Below, one piece after another: positions 416 to 42,218 of a DNA stretch of 42,218 nucleotides (within the stretch, counting starts at the first letter, position 1; every line of letters starts with the position of its first letter). Origin of the DNA: a virus. The stretch covers positions 1 through 42,218 of the IMG/VR virus record IMGVR_UViG_3300044837_000117; one strand, given 5' to 3'. The notes beneath the pieces were generated by a model. That model searched no databases. It was not told where the DNA came from and saw only the letters and a program-made list of their open reading frames with translations. A program made the translations under genes and the position numbers.

Positions 416-1698
416 GGTTAACGCCGTCTCGCAGGCTGTACGGGCTCGGGGCCATCATGTTTGTCGCGCTAGTCGTTTGTTCCCGCAGCCCGGGGGGTAA
501 AGCAGGTCCATCTTTTCTCATTCCACTAGCCGTTGCCGGGCTTACCTACCTTGTCGCTATCCGCGAGATTTTTCAAACTCCAGCGTATGCGCGACACGTC
601 ATCTTCGTTTGCCTCGCGCTGGCCGCCTTGTGGCGGATTGCGTTCGTGATGATGCCGCCAGATTCAGATGACGACATCCACCGATACCTATGGGATGGAC
701 GTGTGCAGCGCTTCGGTTATAACCCTTACACTGTGATTCCCGCGGATCCCGCACTGGCTCGGCTACACACTGCTGAGACGCGTGGGCTGAACAACCCAGA
801 GGTGCCGAGTCCCTATCCAGCCGGTGCGCAGCTTTTTTTTCGGGGTGTCACGGCCATCAGCGAGTCCATCTTTGCATTCAAAGTTGCCTTCGTGACGTGC
901 GATCTAGCGATAGTTCTTGTGCTGCTGGACATCCTGCGTCGAACCGGCCAAAAGGAACACTGGATTTTGGCATATGCCTGGCATCCATTGCTCGCCACTG
1001 ACGTGGCAGGCAGTGGCCACATTGATATTGTGGGCGCTCTTCTGCTTCTCGTCTCCGTTGCGGCGCTGGCGCGCCGCTGGCGGATATCTGCCGCGATTGC
1101 CTTCGGCTTGGCTGTCGCTGTCAAATTTCTTCCCGTTGTATTGGCACCGCTCTATTGGCGGCGGGTGCGCATCCGTGACGCGCTGATCGCAGCGCTGGTC
1201 GTCGTAATGTTGTACGTGCCATTTCTCGAGCACTTTCGCATCCCGATTGGATCGATCGGTGTCTACCTGGAACGGTTTCGGTTCAACGATCCCGTTTTCG
1301 CCACGCTAGAGCGAGTAGTGAGTCCCCAGATCGGAGCGGGTCTGGCGGTGCTTGTCGGGCTACTTACCGCCGCATGGCTTCGACGCAAGCCGCCGGCGTG
1401 CTGTGCGGACAGGTGGGCATGGCCTATGGCCGCGTCTCTTGCGTGTGCGCCGGTCGTGTATCCCTGGTACCTCCTCTGGCTGCTGCCGTTCCTTCGCTCG
1501 ACATCGACGCTGCCGCTCATGGTTTGGACTGTCAGTATTTTGCCAACTTACTTTGTTTGGCACTTGCGGTCGCTCGGACAAGCGTGGAAGGTCCCCGGCT
1601 GGGTTCTACTGCTGGAGTATGGATCCGCTGCTATAGCCGCCGCGCTATGCGCCCCGGCATTGAAATTTAAGTACTTGCGCTCCCACGGCGGGAGTTGA
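412..1698 (+). CDS. Multi-pass GT-C type membrane glycosyltransferase (mannosyltransferase-like), carries attL
   Basis: 428 residues with about ten hydrophobic segments. After the first helices comes DSDDDIHRYLWDGR, then a GYNPYT block and later PEVPSPYPAGAQ. This is the pattern of polyprenyl-phosphate-mannose-dependent GT-C enzymes (GT87/DUF2029-like), which use an acidic loop after the first helix. The GTG at 412 is chosen because it overlaps the upstream stop (GTGA) and removes a 57-nt in-frame overlap; a GTG at 355 is also in frame. The last ~28 codons lie in and beyond the attL core, so in this lysogen the C-terminal tail after residue ~412 is encoded by phage DNA. Acceptor and sugar cannot be told. 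Confidence 0.8.
   Translation: MRLTPSRRLYGLGAIMFVALVVCSRSPGGKAGPSFLIPLAVAGLTYLVAIREIFQTPAYARHVIFVCLALAALWRIAFVMMPPDSDDDIHRYLWDGRVQRFGYNPYTVIPADPALARLHTAETRGLNNPEVPSPYPAGAQLFFRGVTAISESIFAFKVAFVTCDLAIVLVLLDILRRTGQKEHWILAYAWHPLLATDVAGSGHIDIVGALLLLVSVAALARRWRISAAIAFGLAVAVKFLPVVLAPLYWRRVRIRDALIAALVVVMLYVPFLEHFRIPIGSIGVYLERFRFNDPVFATLERVVSPQIGAGLAVLVGLLTAAWLRRKPPACCADRWAWPMAASLACAPVVYPWYLLWLLPFLRSTSTLPLMVWTVSILPTYFVWHLRSLGQAWKVPGWVLLLEYGSAAIAAALCAPALKFKYLRSHGGS
1614..1648. repeat. attL core, 35-bp direct repeat
   Basis: This is identical over 35 bases to 42184-42218 at the right window edge. It lies in the 3' coding end of the membrane glycosyltransferase and includes the stop codon of Int1 (1645-1647 on the minus strand). 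Position beside the integrase 3' end is typical of attachment sites. Confidence 0.9.
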
Positions 1699-2775
1699 TT
1701 GTGGGTCGGTGCCATCCTGGTGCCCGGCGATCGGCCGCACAATCCGCTCGACGTTGGCTTGCTGGTGATCGGGCGACAGATGCGCGTAGCGCATCGTAGT
1801 CACGATCGAACGATGACCGAGGAGCTGCTGCACACTGCGCAGATTCACCCCGGCCATAACCATGCGCGAAGCAAAGGTGTGACGGAGATCGTGGAACCTG
1901 AAGTTCAGGATCTTGGCTTTCGTGACCGCGTCCTCAAACCAGCGGCTCCAATCGAGCTGCTCGGATTTCTCTTTGCCAGGGCAGACGTACGCCGATCCGT
2001 TCGAGATGCAACGAAGTTTCTCGAGCGCCGACTTGGCGATCGAATTTATCTGCACATGCCGGCGGCCGCCCTTGCCTCGTACGGTGAGAATGGAACGTTC
2101 GAGATCTACGTCTTCCCATTTAAGGGAGAATTTTTCTCCGCGCCGGATGCCGGTATAAAGCGCCAGGTCGAACTCCGCTTCACGATCTGGGTTATCACGG
2201 CGAATGACTTCCCGAATTGAGCTTTCCTCTTCCTCTCGCAGATAGCGGATGCGCTCCTCGCTTTCCTTGAAGCGTTTCACACGCGCGACCGGATTCTTCG
2301 AGATCTGGTTACGTTCGACGGCCAGGGAAAATATGCTGCTCAAAAGCGACCGGTACCGGTTGGCGGTAGGTCCCTTGACGGGCCTTTTACCCGTTATACC
2401 CTCGTCAATTATGCGCGCTAACACCTGTTCAATGCGTTCTGGGCTGATTCTGGCCGCTGGACTCGTGCCGAGCTCCTTTACGAGGAAGGGCAGCCGTAAT
2501 TCGTCGGTACGGTAAGACCGCGGCGCGAGTCTCAGTTTCTTGTACTCCATGCGCTGGTCCGCGATTTGCTTGAAGGAAAGCGAAAATCTGGGCTTTATAA
2601 AACGACCTTCGTGGACTTCGCGTTTGCGCAGGCTATAGGCTTCGAGAGCTACCTCGAGCCGGCCGATCCGCTCGCGATGGCGCTTCCCGTCAGTGTCGTA
2701 GTAATTGATCCACCAGACACCTGAGTCGGGGGGTCTTTGAAAAACGCCAGGAATGCACTTAGGCAGGACCTTCAT
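1645..2775 (-). CDS. int: Tyrosine-type integrase (Int1) beside attL
   Basis: 376-residue tyrosine recombinase. An N-terminal arm-binding-type segment (about 10-60, with WINYYDTDGKRHRERIG) is followed by a core-binding SAM-like domain (about 65-165) and the catalytic domain. Catalytic residues seen: R211 in TGIRRGE, H295 and R298 in HDLRH, H321 in LLGHRS and nucleophile Y330 in TTMRYAHLS. It should catalyse integration and, with the HTH protein at 3358, excision at the att sites, which its own 3' end overlaps. It is downstream of, and probably co-transcribed with, the RHH gene at 2788-3027 (12-bp gap). A paralogue, Int2, lies at 40126-41157. Confidence 0.95.
   Translation of the reverse strand: MKVLPKCIPGVFQRPPDSGVWWINYYDTDGKRHRERIGRLEVALEAYSLRKREVHEGRFIKPRFSLSFKQIADQRMEYKKLRLAPRSYRTDELRLPFLVKELGTSPAARISPERIEQVLARIIDEGITGKRPVKGPTANRYRSLLSSIFSLAVERNQISKNPVARVKRFKESEERIRYLREEEESSIREVIRRDNPDREAEFDLALYTGIRRGEKFSLKWEDVDLERSILTVRGKGGRRHVQINSIAKSALEKLRCISNGSAYVCPGKEKSEQLDWSRWFEDAVTKAKILNFRFHDLRHTFASRMVMAGVNLRSVQQLLGHRSIVTTMRYAHLSPDHQQANVERIVRPIAGHQDGTDPQSTPAVGAQVLKFQCRGA
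1708..1724. repeat. 17-bp repeat near attL, possible integrase arm-type site
   Basis: GGTGCCATCCTGGTGCC occurs here, 60 bp inside the left core, and again at 42063-42079, 104 bp inside the right core. It contains two GGTGCC units. Repeats inside both att cores would suit integrase arm-binding sites, but this copy is also coding (HQDGT in the Int1 tail), so conserved coding sequence is an alternative. Confidence 0.4.
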
Positions 2776-4160: not shown

Positions 4161-4191
4161 GAAAAATCTCTTACCTGCCCCGGGGGATCGT

Positions 4192-5058
4192 TTGAAGAGA
4201 CGTGTCAAGAATTGTCCTTACTCAGGTGTAACGGTGGAAATTATCGAAGCCAAACACATCCTCTCGCAAGGATCCGCGGCACGTCTTTTCGATTACTTTG
4301 TTTCTAACCAAACAGGCGCCGACGGGCTGGTGAAGCATGGGCGCGGTTTCACCTATCGAGAACTCGCAGATGATCTGGGCGTTGACGAGTTTGGTCTTCC
4401 CATTCCGGAGAGAACGCTGCGTCGATGGGTTGCTCGACTCCGCGAAGACGCATACATCCGCACTCAAACACTGACGGGATACGGTGGCCTGGGCATACGA
4501 GTTTGGATCCTCCGTCAGAAGAAATTTATTGAGCCCGCCGCGGAGCAACTCGATTTGTCGTTCCCGATGCAGGTAGTCGGCGGAACGGCTGTAGAGGCAG
4601 TACCGGAACGACCGAATTCTGCCGTGGGTAGCGGCCATCCAGTAGTACTGGACCGGCCAAAAATGGCCGGGGGTAGCGGCCAAAAATGGCCGCGCAATAC
4701 CTTATATAAAACAACAAGCACTTCAAACACACACCTGGCGTCCGAAAACTTCGAGATTTTCTTTGCTGCATATCCCAACAAAATTCAAAGGCAAACCGCC
4801 CTCGCAGCCTGGAGGCTGCTTGAGCTCGACCACCGTCTCGGCGAGGTACTCGCCTCGATCGACGTCTGGAAGGCCTCTGGTCGATGGGATGTAGAGCGAT
4901 ATATCCCATACGGCAAAACCTTCCTGGAAACCGGCCTTTGGAAAGAGTCTGTCCCCCCGCGAAAGGAGATCACCAGAAATGGAAACGTCACCCCTGAACA
5001 GCATGAAGAAATTTTCAAGCGAAACGTCGAAGCTTTCCTTAAACGAAATCATCGATGA
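4192..5058 (+). CDS. Phage replication initiator-like protein (winged helix plus C-terminal AYP domain)
   Basis: 288 residues. N-terminal half: a winged-helix domain with TYRELADDLGV and RTLRRWVARLREDAYIRTQT (about 58-105). A low-complexity linker follows at about 135-180. The C-terminal domain opens FEIFFAAYPNKIQRQTALAAW and ends YIPYGKTFLETGLWKE, matching the 'F..AYP.K....A..AW ... Y.P...TFL....W' pattern of many phage replication proteins. The linker is encoded by repeat-rich DNA followed by an AT-rich stretch, as in lambda O. It probably binds the origin and recruits the helicase loader encoded by the overlapping next gene. The start is TTG after GGGGGATCG. Confidence 0.7.
   Translation: MKRRVKNCPYSGVTVEIIEAKHILSQGSAARLFDYFVSNQTGADGLVKHGRGFTYRELADDLGVDEFGLPIPERTLRRWVARLREDAYIRTQTLTGYGGLGIRVWILRQKKFIEPAAEQLDLSFPMQVVGGTAVEAVPERPNSAVGSGHPVVLDRPKMAGGSGQKWPRNTLYKTTSTSNTHLASENFEIFFAAYPNKIQRQTALAAWRLLELDHRLGEVLASIDVWKASGRWDVERYIPYGKTFLETGLWKESVPPRKEITRNGNVTPEQHEEIFKRNVEAFLKRNHR
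4626..4730. other. Candidate replication origin inside the initiator gene
   Basis: Two copies of CGGCCAAAAATGGCCG (4654-4669 and 4677-4692), two copies of GGGTAGCGGCCA (4626-4637 and 4671-4682) and a perfect palindrome CCAGTA-G-TACTGG (4639-4651) lie within 70 bp. An AT-rich run follows (CTTATATAAAACAACAAG, from 4701), suitable as an unwinding element. The encoded peptide is a low-complexity linker, so the DNA rather than the protein may be under selection. Lambda and other lambdoid phages keep their origin at the same place in gene O. Confidence 0.55.
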
Positions 5059-6564: not shown

Positions 6565-7296
6565 ATGCAAGCATTCCTTGGTAAGGCTGAGATAAAAGAA
6601 AAATTCCTCGCGAGAGTGCGGGCTCACCGCGCTGCAGACGAATTGATTAAGGGCACGTATTGGGAGAACGGCAAAGGGTGCGCTGTGGGCTGCACGGTTC
6701 ACAGCGGCAATCACGCTACTTACGAGACTCAGCTCGGAATACCGCGGATCCTCGCGCGACTCGAGGATGGGATATTCGAAGCGCTTCCGAACGGTTCCGC
6801 AATGTTGTGGCCGGAACAATTCCTATCCGCGATAGAACCGGGCGCGGATCTTTCGATGGTTTGGCCACGCTTCGCTGTGTGGATGTTGGTCGACAAAGAG
6901 TGGGGAGTGCTGCAGTTCGCGAAAACTGACAAGTCCAAGAAAGCAATCCAGGACGTGGCCGCCGCGTACCAGTCCGTCGTGGACGGAAATAAAACAAAAC
7001 CAGATTGGGCCACAGTGCGTAGCGCCGCCGACGCCGCCGACGCCGCCGACGCCGCCGCCGACGCCGCCTACGCCGCCGCCGCCTACGCCGCCGCCGCCTA
7101 CGCCGACGCCGACGCCGCCGCCGACGCCGCCGCCTACGCCGCCTACGCCGCCGCCGCCTACGCCGCCGCCGCCTACGCCGACGCCGACGCCGCCGCCGAC
7201 GCCGCCGCCTACGCCGCCTACGCCGCCGCCGCTCGAAGAACCGAGTGGCGCTACGCGCAGGCGAAAAAACTCATTGAGTTACTCGGAGAAAAATAA
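6565..7296 (+). CDS. Hypothetical protein with long Ala/Asp/Tyr repeat
   Basis: 243 residues. The N-terminal ~150 form a globular-looking part (YWENGKGCAVGCTVHSG, then RFAVWMLVDKEWGVLQF) that resembles Imm-5-like/phage hypothetical proteins, which often carry Ala-rich tails. Residues ~153-223 consist almost only of Ala with regularly spaced Tyr and Asp, then a short basic helix. The repeat contains a 25-residue unit twice. Every codon in it is GCC, GAC or TAC. Alternating Ala with Asp/Tyr would make a long amphipathic helix. The start is preceded by GGGGGA. Confidence 0.6.
   Translation: MQAFLGKAEIKEKFLARVRAHRAADELIKGTYWENGKGCAVGCTVHSGNHATYETQLGIPRILARLEDGIFEALPNGSAMLWPEQFLSAIEPGADLSMVWPRFAVWMLVDKEWGVLQFAKTDKSKKAIQDVAAAYQSVVDGNKTKPDWATVRSAADAADAADAAADAAYAAAAYAAAAYADADAAADAAAYAAYAAAAYAAAAYADADAAADAAAYAAYAAAARRTEWRYAQAKKLIELLGEK
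7069..7218 (+). repeat. Tandem 75-bp coding repeat in a GCC/GAC/TAC tract
   Basis: Two exact copies of a 75-bp unit (7069-7143 and 7144-7218) plus a partial third lie inside a codon-homogeneous tract running about 7022-7232. The whole tract uses one codon per amino acid, pointing to recent slippage or unequal recombination. Confidence 0.9.
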
Positions 7297-38741: not shown

Positions 38742-38837
38742 CGTTACAAACTAAAGGACTTACGGTGTAGTGGAACCGCGACGAGGGACCATCTGTCCCG
38801 CGCGTCAGCTTCCGCGCGCCGTGGTAGAATCCGATCG

Positions 38838-38940
38838 GATCGGCGAGCGCGCTCCAAAGGCGTCGAAGAGTCCGGGGAAGGTGCACCTGAACCGGATGAC
38901 AGCGGCGATGAACTGCGGGTTCGAATCCCGCCGCCGATCA
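38838..38940 (+). ncRNA. tRNA-like RNA, atypical or degenerate
   Basis: A perfect T-arm, GCGGG-TTCGAAT-CCCGC (38915-38931), is followed directly by CGCCGATC (38932-38939), which pairs with GATCGGCG at 38838-38845, giving an 8-bp acceptor-like stem, with A at the discriminator position. A further stem TCCGG/CCGGA (38871-38875 with 38892-38896) sits where the anticodon stem would be, but its loop is 16 bases with AGGTGCACCT, and the D-arm lacks GG. No CCA is encoded. It may be a decayed class II tRNA, a tRNA mimic or an old attachment-site fragment. Confidence 0.35.
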
Positions 38941-39099
38941 CTCTTCCCGACAATGCTGGTTAAATCTTCACCAGGCCGTAAAGAATTTCGCGGGGGGTTA
39001 AGAATTGAGCGGCGATGTCGTGTACTGCAAAACGCTATACAAATGCAGCCGCCGAAGGGAAGTGTCACGCTTCCGCGTTATAGGTTGAATGGGTTTGTG

Positions 39100-39136: not shown

Positions 39137-39313
39137 TTACCACTCGTCGACGTCCGCCTCAGCCATCGCGCAATCTTCGCATTGCTCCGAGACGCCGGAG
39201 CCGCGACACTCCGGGCAAGTCCCGAGATCCCATCCGGACGGCTGTGTTTTGTCCTCGACTTCGACGGTCCCCTGGCCGTGGCACGTCGAGCAGGTTATGC
39301 AAGTGCAGCTCAC
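39137..39313 (-). CDS. DnaJ-type zinc-finger-like small protein
   Basis: 58 residues. CTCITCSTCHGQGTVE and LGTCPECRGSGVSEQCEDC contain CxxCHGQG and CxxCRGSG, the two DnaJ-like zinc repeats. GTG 39313 overlaps the previous stop (GTGA) as at the other junctions; ATG 39334 is also in frame. Last gene of the leftward block. Function unknown. Confidence 0.55.
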   Translation of the reverse strand: MSCTCITCSTCHGQGTVEVEDKTQPSGWDLGTCPECRGSGVSEQCEDCAMAEADVDEW

Positions 39314-39522
39314 GGCTTCGATCCTGGCTTCCATCGTTCGACAAACTCATCGCGCTGGACCAGCGCGGCGAAGTCCAAAAGCGTGCGGCGCGCGAGCGTA
39401 ATAATTCGGCTTCGTCTGCCCGGATCGATATCCTCTGCCCGCTGGTAAATTAACTCCAGCACATCGTCGGCGATGTCGCCGGCGTGATCGATTGCCATTT
39501 GTTCGAGCTGCTCGTCTGTCAC
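39310..39522 (-). CDS. Small helical protein, third in the leftward cassette block
   Basis: 70 residues, acidic (TDEQLEQMAIDHAGDIADDV), ending PGSKP. It starts at GTG overlapping the previous stop (GTGA). No family recognised. Its 3' end shares the GGATCGAAGCCGTGA junction. Confidence 0.5.
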   Translation of the reverse strand: MTDEQLEQMAIDHAGDIADDVLELIYQRAEDIDPGRRSRIITLARRTLLDFAALVQRDEFVERWKPGSKP

Positions 39523-39863
39523 GGCTTCGATCCGATCTCCCGAAAATCAGGGAAGACTTCGACGTGTTCGCCGACGACGTAAGGCTTCTCGGGTGCAGCA
39601 ATGAAGCCTCCGGACGCGAGCGTGCACGGCGCGTCCGTCATCGGGTTTCGATCTTCCGGGTTGAACTTCTTCTCGACCGCAATGCGGTTAGCGAGCTCGC
39701 GTGCATAAGCTTCCAAGAATTCGTTGCTGTAGACTGTCCTGAGTCCTCCGATGCATTTAGCGGATTTTTCTACGTGTTCTCTCACTATGCTTTCTACAGC
39801 GCCGGCCGGCAGATGATCCCGCAATAGCACGTACAAAAAGCTAACCATTCCTTCGTTGCTCAC
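39519..39863 (-). CDS. Hypothetical protein, second in the leftward cassette block
   Basis: 114 residues from GTG 39863 (GTGA overlap). SFLYVLLRDHLPAGAVESIV and FLEAYARELANRIAVEK are helical; after NPMTDAPC comes a short C-terminal part ending EIGSKP. An upstream ATG in frame (40013) would overlap the neighbour extensively and is less likely. No family recognised. Confidence 0.55.
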   Translation of the reverse strand: MSNEGMVSFLYVLLRDHLPAGAVESIVREHVEKSAKCIGGLRTVYSNEFLEAYARELANRIAVEKKFNPEDRNPMTDAPCTLASGGFIAAPEKPYVVGEHVEVFPDFREIGSKP

Positions 39864-40126
39864 GGCTTCGATCCGATCTTCTCGACCGCGGCATCCGCGA
39901 ATCTCACAAAGCTGTGTTTCTCTTCGTCGCTTCGTAACTTGTACCAGGGGTATTTGACAACTGATATCTTTGCCACGACTAGACGAAAATTCATTGCTCC
40001 GCATCGGTAGCAAAGGTTAGGGCGCCCAAGATGGATGTGAAAAAACGCCCGGCAATCCTGGCATTGATAATTCAGACGGAATGTTATGTCCGGCGTGGGA
40101 TCTGACATCACTGGTGGATCGTACAT
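39860..40126 (-). CDS. Zinc-ribbon-like protein, first after Int2
   Basis: 88 residues. YQCQDCRAFFHIHLG and NLCYRCGAMNF give a C-x2-C ... C-x2-C zinc ribbon. The end AAVEKIGSKP is nearly the same as the end of Int2 (AAVEKIGSKG), and the DNA under it matches over 26 bp. ATG 40126 overlaps Int2's stop (TAATG). Confidence 0.6.
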   Translation of the reverse strand: MYDPPVMSDPTPDITFRLNYQCQDCRAFFHIHLGRPNLCYRCGAMNFRLVVAKISVVKYPWYKLRSDEEKHSFVRFADAAVEKIGSKP

Positions 40127-41157
40127 TAGCCTTTCGATCCGATCTTCTCGACCGCGGCTTGGCGATGGTCGGGAGAGAGGTGAGCATAACGCATGGTCAT
40201 AAGGATCGACTTGTGGCCGAGGAGCACCTGGACGGTTCGGATGTCGACGCCGGCCATCACCAGGCGGCTCGCAAAAGTGTGACGGAGATCATGCCAGTGA
40301 AAGTCCTGGACGCCGGCGGCCTTCGCGGAATCTTCTAACCATCGGCGCCAATCGCGTTGCTCATCGTCCTTAGTGGCGCGGCAAACATAAACCGCGTCCG
40401 GCTTCTTTGCAAGCTGCAGGCGCTCGATCGCGGCGCGCGTCGACGAATTCACGACGATAAATCTCCGGCCGGTTTTTCCTTTCACTGTCAGAATCCCGCT
40501 TTCCAGGTCGACATCCTTCCACTTCAATGTGAATTGTTCGCCGCGGCGCATGCCGGTATAGAGCGCCAGGTCAAACTCCGGCTCATGATCCGAAAACTTC
40601 TTACGGATCATTCCGCGGAGCCTGGTCTCTTCGTCGTCTTTCAAATAGCGGACGCGGGAATCGTTCTCGCGAAAGCGCTTCACCCGGGCGACGGGGTTTG
40701 TACGGAGCCGGCCGGTCCGGAGCGCAAAGGAATAGATCGAAGAGATGAGCGATCGATACCGATTGACCGTGGATCCGGAGTTACCTGCATCGCGCAGATC
40801 GGAGAATAGTTTCTCGAGCTGCTCCGGAGTGATGAGCTCTGCCGGCGTCGCACCGATCCGCGGCAAGATTGTCTCCAATCGAAGACAATCTGTTTTGTAG
40901 GATTGCGGAGCGAGACGAAGTTTCTTGTGCTGCAGGGCGGCCAGCGCCAGCTCCCGGAACGAGACGGCCGCGGCGCGCGGCGACAGGTACTTTCCTTCGC
41001 GGATCTCAGCTTGTCGCCTGGCGAAGGCCTCGAGGGCTTCGGATCGACGGCCGATCTTTTCGCGATGACGCTTGCGGCCGGCGTCGTAATAGTCGATCCA
41101 GAAGACGCCGGACTTCGGAGGCCGCTCGAAGATGCCTCCGCTCTGCTTAATTTTCAT
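40126..41157 (-). CDS. int: Second tyrosine integrase (Int2)
   Basis: 343 residues, similar to Int1 throughout (for example SGVFWIDYYDAGRKRHREKIG and MRYAHLSPDH). Catalytic residues: R204 in TGMRRGE, H289 and R292 in HDLRH, H315 in LLGHKS, Y324 in TTMRYAHLS-like TMRYAHLS. It should be active. It is first in a leftward block of five genes, with no obvious att repeat of its own. Whether it serves excision, a nested element or cassette movement is unknown. Confidence 0.93.
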   Translation of the reverse strand: MKIKQSGGIFERPPKSGVFWIDYYDAGRKRHREKIGRRSEALEAFARRQAEIREGKYLSPRAAAVSFRELALAALQHKKLRLAPQSYKTDCLRLETILPRIGATPAELITPEQLEKLFSDLRDAGNSGSTVNRYRSLISSIYSFALRTGRLRTNPVARVKRFRENDSRVRYLKDDEETRLRGMIRKKFSDHEPEFDLALYTGMRRGEQFTLKWKDVDLESGILTVKGKTGRRFIVVNSSTRAAIERLQLAKKPDAVYVCRATKDDEQRDWRRWLEDSAKAAGVQDFHWHDLRHTFASRLVMAGVDIRTVQVLLGHKSILMTMRYAHLSPDHRQAAVEKIGSKG

Positions 41158-41260: not shown

Positions 41261-41911
41261 CTATTGTCCAGAAGCTTTAACTGCAACCATAGCCTCGTGC
41301 CCTTGTTTGGTTTTCCAGTCGGCTAAGATTGAGGCGCAGAACTTTTCAGATTTGTTCTTGATGCTCTGATGTATCCCGTGCGCAGCGTCCATGAGAAGTA
41401 CTTCGCCGGATGCATTCAGAATTGCCATCTGGTTGTGGTTGTTGGCTTCGTGGTTCAGCATTACGGTGTAGTCTGCACCGTCCTGCTTCATCGTGACGGT
41501 TACCGGGCAACCTGCAAAGTCTTTAGCCAACTCAAGGCTCTGGTCATGCTGACTGGTGTTTGACCACGCACCGCCAAACAAACCACGGCCAGCGGTTGTC
41601 TGCGTGTTTCCGGCGCCATTGAGAAACACAACGGGTCTATCATGAGCAACAGTGACAGGCGATGCTGGTGCAGGTTTGACCAGCTCGGCAGGCGCTACCG
41701 TCACAGCCCGCGGTGCGGTAGGTTCCGACGTTACTTTCTCCTTAACGATTGAGCAGACCTGAGTGTCTGCCCCACTCCCAACGATTGACTCGCTAGGGCC
41801 GATATTGTCGCCCGGCGTCAGTGGTCGGCATTTGACTTCTGTTTTGGTTCCCTGTGCAAACGCGGGTGCAGCAAACAGTAGACTGATGGACAGAAGGCGG
41901 GCGATTTTCAT
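41261..41911 (-). CDS. Secreted protein of unknown function, prophage cargo
   Basis: 216 residues with a clear signal peptide (KIARLLSISLLFAAPAFAQG, cleavage probably after AFA). A Pro/Ala/Thr-rich segment follows (about 60-90), then a compact C-terminal domain with LELAKDFAGCPVTVTMKQDG, NHEANNHNQMAIL and KFCASILADW. Cysteines at C28-like and C-terminal places may form disulfides. AAGGAG lies nine bases before the ATG. It is a typical lysogenic-conversion (moron) position beside attR. No family recognised. Confidence 0.65.
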   Translation of the reverse strand: MKIARLLSISLLFAAPAFAQGTKTEVKCRPLTPGDNIGPSESIVGSGADTQVCSIVKEKVTSEPTAPRAVTVAPAELVKPAPASPVTVAHDRPVVFLNGAGNTQTTAGRGLFGGAWSNTSQHDQSLELAKDFAGCPVTVTMKQDGADYTVMLNHEANNHNQMAILNASGEVLLMDAAHGIHQSIKNKSEKFCASILADWKTKQGHEAMVAVKASGQ

Positions 41912-42183
41912 TGGCGTTGCTCCTTTTTGTTCCGCAGGCCAATAGTAGTCACTAAGGCTTAGTTACGGGAATAGTACGTCTGTACCTTGTAACCTTTTGG
42001 GCAAGATCAGCGGATAGACCGGCGGATAAATCGAGCAACGCGCGCGTGCGCCTGGTGCCGCTGGTGCCATCCTGGTGCCAGCGACTCACGTTTTCCCACA
42101 ACTCACCGCAGATGCTTTTACTGAAAAACAAGCGTTTAACGGGAAACCAATTCGTCCCACAACCCGCCGCGACTGGCTACGAC
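41912..42183. other. 272-bp non-coding segment before attR
   Basis: It holds the promoter region of the leftward cargo gene and three CTGGTGCC repeats, and no gene that can be supported. On the minus strand the frame around the repeats could encode a short RWHQDGT-like stretch, similar to the Int1 tail, perhaps a leftover of an integrase end. Confidence 0.5.
42052..42079. repeat. Three CTGGTGCC repeats near attR
   Basis: CTGGTGCC occurs at 42052-42059, 42061-42068 and 42072-42079; the 17-bp block 42063-42079 equals 1708-1724 near attL. Possible integrase arm-binding sites on the right arm. Confidence 0.45.
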
Positions 42184-42218
42184 GGAGTATGGATCCGCTG
42201 CTATAGCCGCCGCGCTAT
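42184..42218. repeat. attR core, 35-bp direct repeat
   Basis: Identical to 1614-1648. It runs to the last base of the window, so its real length may exceed 35 bp; the remaining 3' end of the host glycosyltransferase gene should follow outside the window. Confidence 0.88.

Follow-up and report, generated by a model that had tools for sequence, protein, structure and literature searches.

Junction repeats around single small genes suggest stepwise gene acquisition in an integrase-led operon of soil phages

The way in which temperate phages accumulate their many orphan small genes has yet to be explained, since the joins can seldom be read. Brief border sequences between genes, such as the boundary or linker sequences of lambdoid phages and the PeSL of T4-type phages, are thought to promote gene shuffling; different phages have them conserved at matching positions, or they bring promoters or terminators, whereas the repeats described here are young local duplications. 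Where PMC4503421 cites them, PeSL are mobile regulatory cassettes of T4-type phages.

The closest precedent comes from mycobacteriophages of cluster I1. In Island3, gene 68 is a small orphan that closes with 18 codons (about 50-60 bp) repeated from the end of gene 67, while its near relative Brujita, of the same cluster, is without gene 68 and carries a single recombinant copy; the proposed cause was general recombination at short boundary sequences (PMC3029335). The locus analysed here resembles this case in that adjacent unrelated genes have 3′ terminal DNA in common, both in our prophage and in its relatives; in one pair of those relatives, G007 and G424, the phage without the gene has a single repeat copy. 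Island3 offers one event, however, whereas our prophage has three in a row, starting from the 3′ end of an integrase gene; the repeats here are also shorter (15-34 bp), span stop and start codons, and vary in sequence across the phage group.

The start-associated sequences (SAS) of cluster K mycobacteriophages are a second point of comparison. SAS are one conserved 13-bp sequence, GGGATAGGAGCCC, with a Shine-Dalgarno (SD) element; it occurs in 11-19 copies, each lying a few bp ahead of a start and most of them in the wider intergenic gaps (PMC3203893). Both kinds are short directional repeats at the starts of small non-structural genes, with unrelated genes behind them. In contrast to SAS, the repeats of our group are private to each phage, local, and placed in overlapping stop/start junctions; that of our prophage is not the 13-bp SAS sequence, and reads GGATCGAAGCCGTGA, in 3 copies. 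The locus is also like an integron, as a tyrosine recombinase gene is followed by single-gene units in the same orientation with a repeat at each 3′ end, but there is no attI and no attC structure, and the array continues from the integrase gene in one operon. Here the joins are still visible, and they are found repeatedly in a fairly large group of soil phages whose hosts are probably Acidobacteriota.

The prophage and its att sites

The window, by which we mean the whole stretch of DNA that was analysed, is a 42,218-base provirus record of IMG/VR and a metagenomic contig. It is a complete prophage, with 35-bp att repeats at 1614 and 42184.

1614-1648, no strand assigned: attL core, 35 bp, found by direct-repeat search
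1645-2775, minus strand: int1, tyrosine recombinase gene with its stop inside the attL core; protein 54% identical to Int2
1708-1724, no strand assigned: candidate arm-type site GGTGCCATCCTGGTGCC, 17 bp, repeat on the phage side of attL
42063-42079, no strand assigned: candidate arm-type site, the same 17 bp, repeat on the phage side of attR
42184-42218, no strand assigned: attR core, 35 bp, found by direct-repeat search

Int1 is probably the integrase of this prophage, because int1 ends in the left att repeat, an argument from position. The 35-bp att core falls within the 3′ end of a host gene (355-1698), the best matches of which, among 396 genomes of the phylum of a Terriglobia/Acidobacteriota metagenome-assembled genome, are 44-46% identical. 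This temperate phage probably has an acidobacterial host (Acidobacteriota), which these matches fit and do not prove.

Two features of the right-hand part were noted in passing. The 717-bp non-coding gap between the late genes and g4, the last gene of the array described below, holds a tRNA-like stretch (38834-38942) with a perfect T-arm, GCGGGTTCGAATCCCGC, and 8-bp acceptor-like ends. We considered it as an att site of Int2 and rejected it, as it was not recognised by ARAGORN or Rfam and has no cloverleaf fold. Between int2 and attR lies a gene for a putative secreted protein (41261-41911), the product of which resembles, weakly and below the cut-off (E 0.0055), a papain-fold glutamine deamidase domain; it is possible that this gene is lysogeny cargo.

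An array of small genes behind int2

A second tyrosine recombinase gene, int2, leads four small genes in the order int2, g1, g2, g3, g4 on the minus strand.

40126-41157, minus strand: int2, tyrosine recombinase, 343 aa, first gene of the array (Pfam PF00589, 6.6e-31; phrog_1, 8e-68)
40133-40158, minus strand: junction copy X0, int2 3′ coding end, 26 bp identical to X1
39860-40126, minus strand: g1, 88 aa, zinc-ribbon-like orphan (weak Zn-ribbon matches), starts in TAATG
39860-39892, minus strand: junction copy X1, 26 bp identical to X0, last 20 bp identical to X2
39519-39863, minus strand: g2, 114-aa orphan, GTG start in X1
39519-39538, minus strand: junction copy X2, 20 bp identical to X1
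39310-39522, minus strand: g3, 70-aa orphan, GTG start in X2
39308-39324, minus strand: junction copy X3, 17 bp identical to X1
39137-39313, minus strand: g4, 58-65 aa, CXXCXGXG (DnaJ central-domain-like), GTG start in X3, alternative ATG at 39334

The common 3′ ends that the first-pass annotation had reported for Int2, g1, g2 and g3 are real. The ends of int2 and g1 share GCCGCGGTCGAGAAGATCGGATCGAA (26/26; 40133-40158 and 39867-39892), those of g1 and g2 share AGATCGGATCGAAGCCGTGA (20/20), and those of g1 and g3 share GGATCGAAGCCGTGAGC (17/17). Int2 ends in GSKG and the three small proteins in GSKP, and each junction copy contains or abuts the next start codon (TAATG once, GTGA three times), again as had been described. 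The identity between int2 and g1 stops short of the stop codon, so what these two genes share is a duplicate of the coding 3′ end of int, which is more than a common start region; the later matches include GCCGTGA, that is, stop plus start. The interval first proposed for the array, 39308-41157, takes in int2 and the junctions and omits the end of g4 (39137-39307); g4 itself does not carry the repeat at its 3′ end.

A direct-repeat search of the whole window revealed no such repeat at any further gene junction; the other direct repeats of at least 17 bp were the att repeat, the possible arm-site repeat, gene-internal repeats and one 19-bp pair 17 kb apart. A chance origin of the junction repeats in the window is excluded. 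The contig is metagenomic, which might point to an assembly artefact, but chance would not be expected to give 26 identical bp within 2 kb, and like repeats occur in independent contigs from other samples; chance or artefact is hardly credible as the source of the repeats. At the window junctions we found no inverted repeat or inverted core, no arm-like repeats around X, and no hairpin (RNA z +1.06 and +0.70; DNA z -1.6 to +1.0). X as a widespread element was rejected, as 2.9 million viral contigs gave one exact 19-mer match, in a Mu-like contig and attributable to chance.

No relatives of g1-g3 were found in viral contigs, a phage collection or the 396 genomes of the sampled phylum, and the homology search gave weak relatives, and nothing stronger, for g4. 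In Pfam, g4 matches PF00684 at 3.1e-5, below the cut-off. The GC content of g1, 0.50, is lower than that of the phage (about 0.57).

Junction repeats in related phages

We collected 49 int-like genes at >=40% identity, on metagenomic contigs. An Int2 gene heading an operon of small genes is an arrangement common to about 50 related phages, and these small genes overlap and differ in content from phage to phage. Several records have two homologous tyrosine recombinases per phage, Int1 beside att and Int2 leading the small-gene operon; the window, G001, G002 and G003 have int1, att and int2 in this order and all in one orientation, and int2 is reversed relative to int1-att in G004 and G016. A small-gene region of G005 contains an array of 51-bp tandem repeats (L007, 5511-6000).

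To look for duplicated int ends, the 3′ ends of 155 int genes were compared with the 1.5 kb behind them, upstream sequence serving as the control. The window scored 26 and G006 scored 22, against a control maximum of 13, and these two were the only cases among the 49 closer genes. The int of G006 (71% identity) is truncated by the contig start. Behind it, the first gene encodes 96 aa and has no relationship to g1; its terminal sequence, CAGGCGGCGGCCGAGAAGATCGGCGGGA, matches the G006 int 3′ end at 26/28 positions, and this independent duplication involves the same int codons as in the window (QAAxEKIG; the G006 tail reads QAAAEKIGG). Four other int-end repeats were set aside: those of L211, L060 and L219 resemble att arm sites in Int1-type tails, and that of L218 is a palindromic element of about 36 bp. 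The latter (4173-4204, 4832, 4951) has the form CGCGCCAA...TTGGCGCG and is present as two near-identical copies, of which one lies within and the other at the end of a small gene, and part of it resembles the int 3′ end.

Two homologous ints per phage are common in the group, sometimes close together, and the duplications could be relics of a second int downstream, deleted from inside g1 to the 3′ end, with the later junctions copied from its tail. We find this very improbable. It would require several in-frame deletions, the copies are 26/26 identical as against 54% in protein for Int1 and Int2, and neither g1 nor its G006 counterpart in position retains any int sequence past 26-28 bp.

Junction repeats scoring >=14 flanked a single gene in 9 of 578 cases (34 arrays, with genes called by a home-made caller that also underlies the gain and loss comparisons below), as against 4/5037 for non-neighbouring junctions and 15/19331 between arrays. 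A count independent of the caller gave 16 repeat pairs in 6/47 related arrays; the same junction pairs shifted 75 bp into genes gave 1/3919, and arrays behind more distant integrases gave 2 repeat pairs in 91 arrays. At [A/G]TGA junctions, identical runs of >=11 bp were seen in 7/876 pairs within arrays versus 2/34098 between arrays, one of these two being the same genome counted twice. The repeats mostly flank a single gene, lie up to 3 kb from int, and vary in sequence from one phage to another, and even among junctions of a single phage.

Gain and loss of single genes

The first-pass annotation had suggested comparing relatives for gene differences between repeat copies, and this comparison gave a positive result in one related phage pair. 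G007 and G424 have genes A, B and M in common. In G007, gene C lies between B and M with the 18-bp repeat CGGAGGTGCCGGCGTGAT on either side (18/18), whereas G424 has no gene C and a single repeat copy, AGGTGCCGGCGTGATG (B-R-C-R-M versus B-R-M); M is 91% identical, and homology begins exactly at the repeat. This pair is the only clean one-copy/two-copy alternative, and a gene gained or lost as a unit with one repeat was observed in relatives only, not among g1-g4; the records compared included no relative of the window itself with fewer or other genes in its array. Family C has flanking direct repeats in both its carriers in this phage group, the homologue in G003 (41%) being flanked by another repeat (31/34 bases). 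As the repeats around C differ between G007 and G003, the repeated sequence seems to be a property of the site rather than of the gene, as would be expected if the local junction was duplicated. A third homologue, in L283, has no flanking repeat.

Gene 10 of G017, between 20-bp repeats, is absent from G005, where the junction differs. About 115 other pairwise gene gains or losses (redundant across pairs) had no flanking repeat, so junction duplication is one route among others, or its traces fade. Taken alone, the association of repeats with variable genes was not significant (3/39 versus 0/35, p=0.14).

Gene 10, placed between its repeats within the int2 array of G017, also has a counterpart in our prophage: an alanine-rich repeat protein (6565-7296; 97-bp exact internal DNA repeat, 7061/7136), with 79% identity over 153 aa.

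It is possible that the repeats serve expression as translation-initiation or regulatory signals under selection, having been copied or having converged, and that they do not mark gene movement. They are located on stop-SD-start, a motif near GGAGGCGGAGATG precedes 22/578 called starts in 10 arrays (within two mismatches), a junction of G009 resembles that of the window (GGAGCGAAGCCGTGAGC), and SAS provide a precedent (PMC3203893). We nevertheless regard this as unlikely, as the int2/g1 and G006 duplications are int coding sequence that ends before the stop codon, similarity within genomes is far above that between genomes, the repeats favour neighbouring junctions, and gene C is present or absent between G007 and G424.

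Routes of gene entry

We favour, with a rough probability of 0.6, stepwise acquisition of single genes at translational junctions; the process would be general or illegitimate recombination rather than the work of an integron-like machine. Single small genes would enter the operon led by int2 step by step, each entry leaving the gene bordered on either side by a copy of the local stop/start junction, which in the window consists of the int2 3′ end and GAAGCCGTGA. With the junction copied at both ends, the newcomer would read in frame into the old junction and stay translationally coupled. Phage genomes would most likely have recombined at short sequences through strand annealing or template switching, and two copies, once present, would also permit loss or exchange of the gene in between. 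That genes were gained and not lost is our inference, as is the enzyme. Repeat identity drops with distance from int2 (26, 20 and 17 bp), which is consistent with serial entry next to int; these are three values and no proof.

The alternative of integron-like insertion catalysed by Int2 would make the int2 3′ end an att site for small circles of one gene and one site. The window and G006 duplicate the same int codons around unrelated single-gene inserts, the identity falls from int as if genes entered beside it, and Int2 retains the conserved residues that an active tyrosine recombinase should have. However, the duplication is found in just 2/49 of the closer int genes, the other junction repeats are unrelated in sequence and lie 2-3 kb from int, and the sites of the sister enzyme Int1 resemble ordinary core and arm sites. 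An integrase-driven system predicts a conserved site, sites near int, and a core or hairpin; none of these was found, so Int2 as the agent is unsupported. Nor is Int2 an integron-type integrase (IntI): it scored 54 bits with TIGR02249 (cut-off 265) and 47 with NF011946 (cut-off 435), and phage integrase families fit it far better. We therefore consider insertion by Int2 quite unlikely, although for the int-derived cases alone (the window and G006) it is possible. That the Int2-type recombinases of this phage group take up single-gene circles at their own genes' 3′ ends, a phage-borne integron-like capture that would dispense with attC hairpins, seems to us improbable. Of the cassette-like array first proposed for this locus, what holds is that repeats bound single genes that come and go (G007/G424; G006); serial insertion by the recombinase is not supported.

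With stepwise acquisition at junctions as the favoured reading, these arrays form a test set in which single-gene gains can be dated, compared and reproduced. C-terminal tails common to unrelated phage proteins can, moreover, be scars of insertion and not functional tags.

A stop codon followed by GGAGGCGGAGATG stands ahead of unrelated small genes in the arrays of G004, G005, G006, G007, G017 and G426, and this start motif may be akin to the SAS of cluster K mycobacteriophages.
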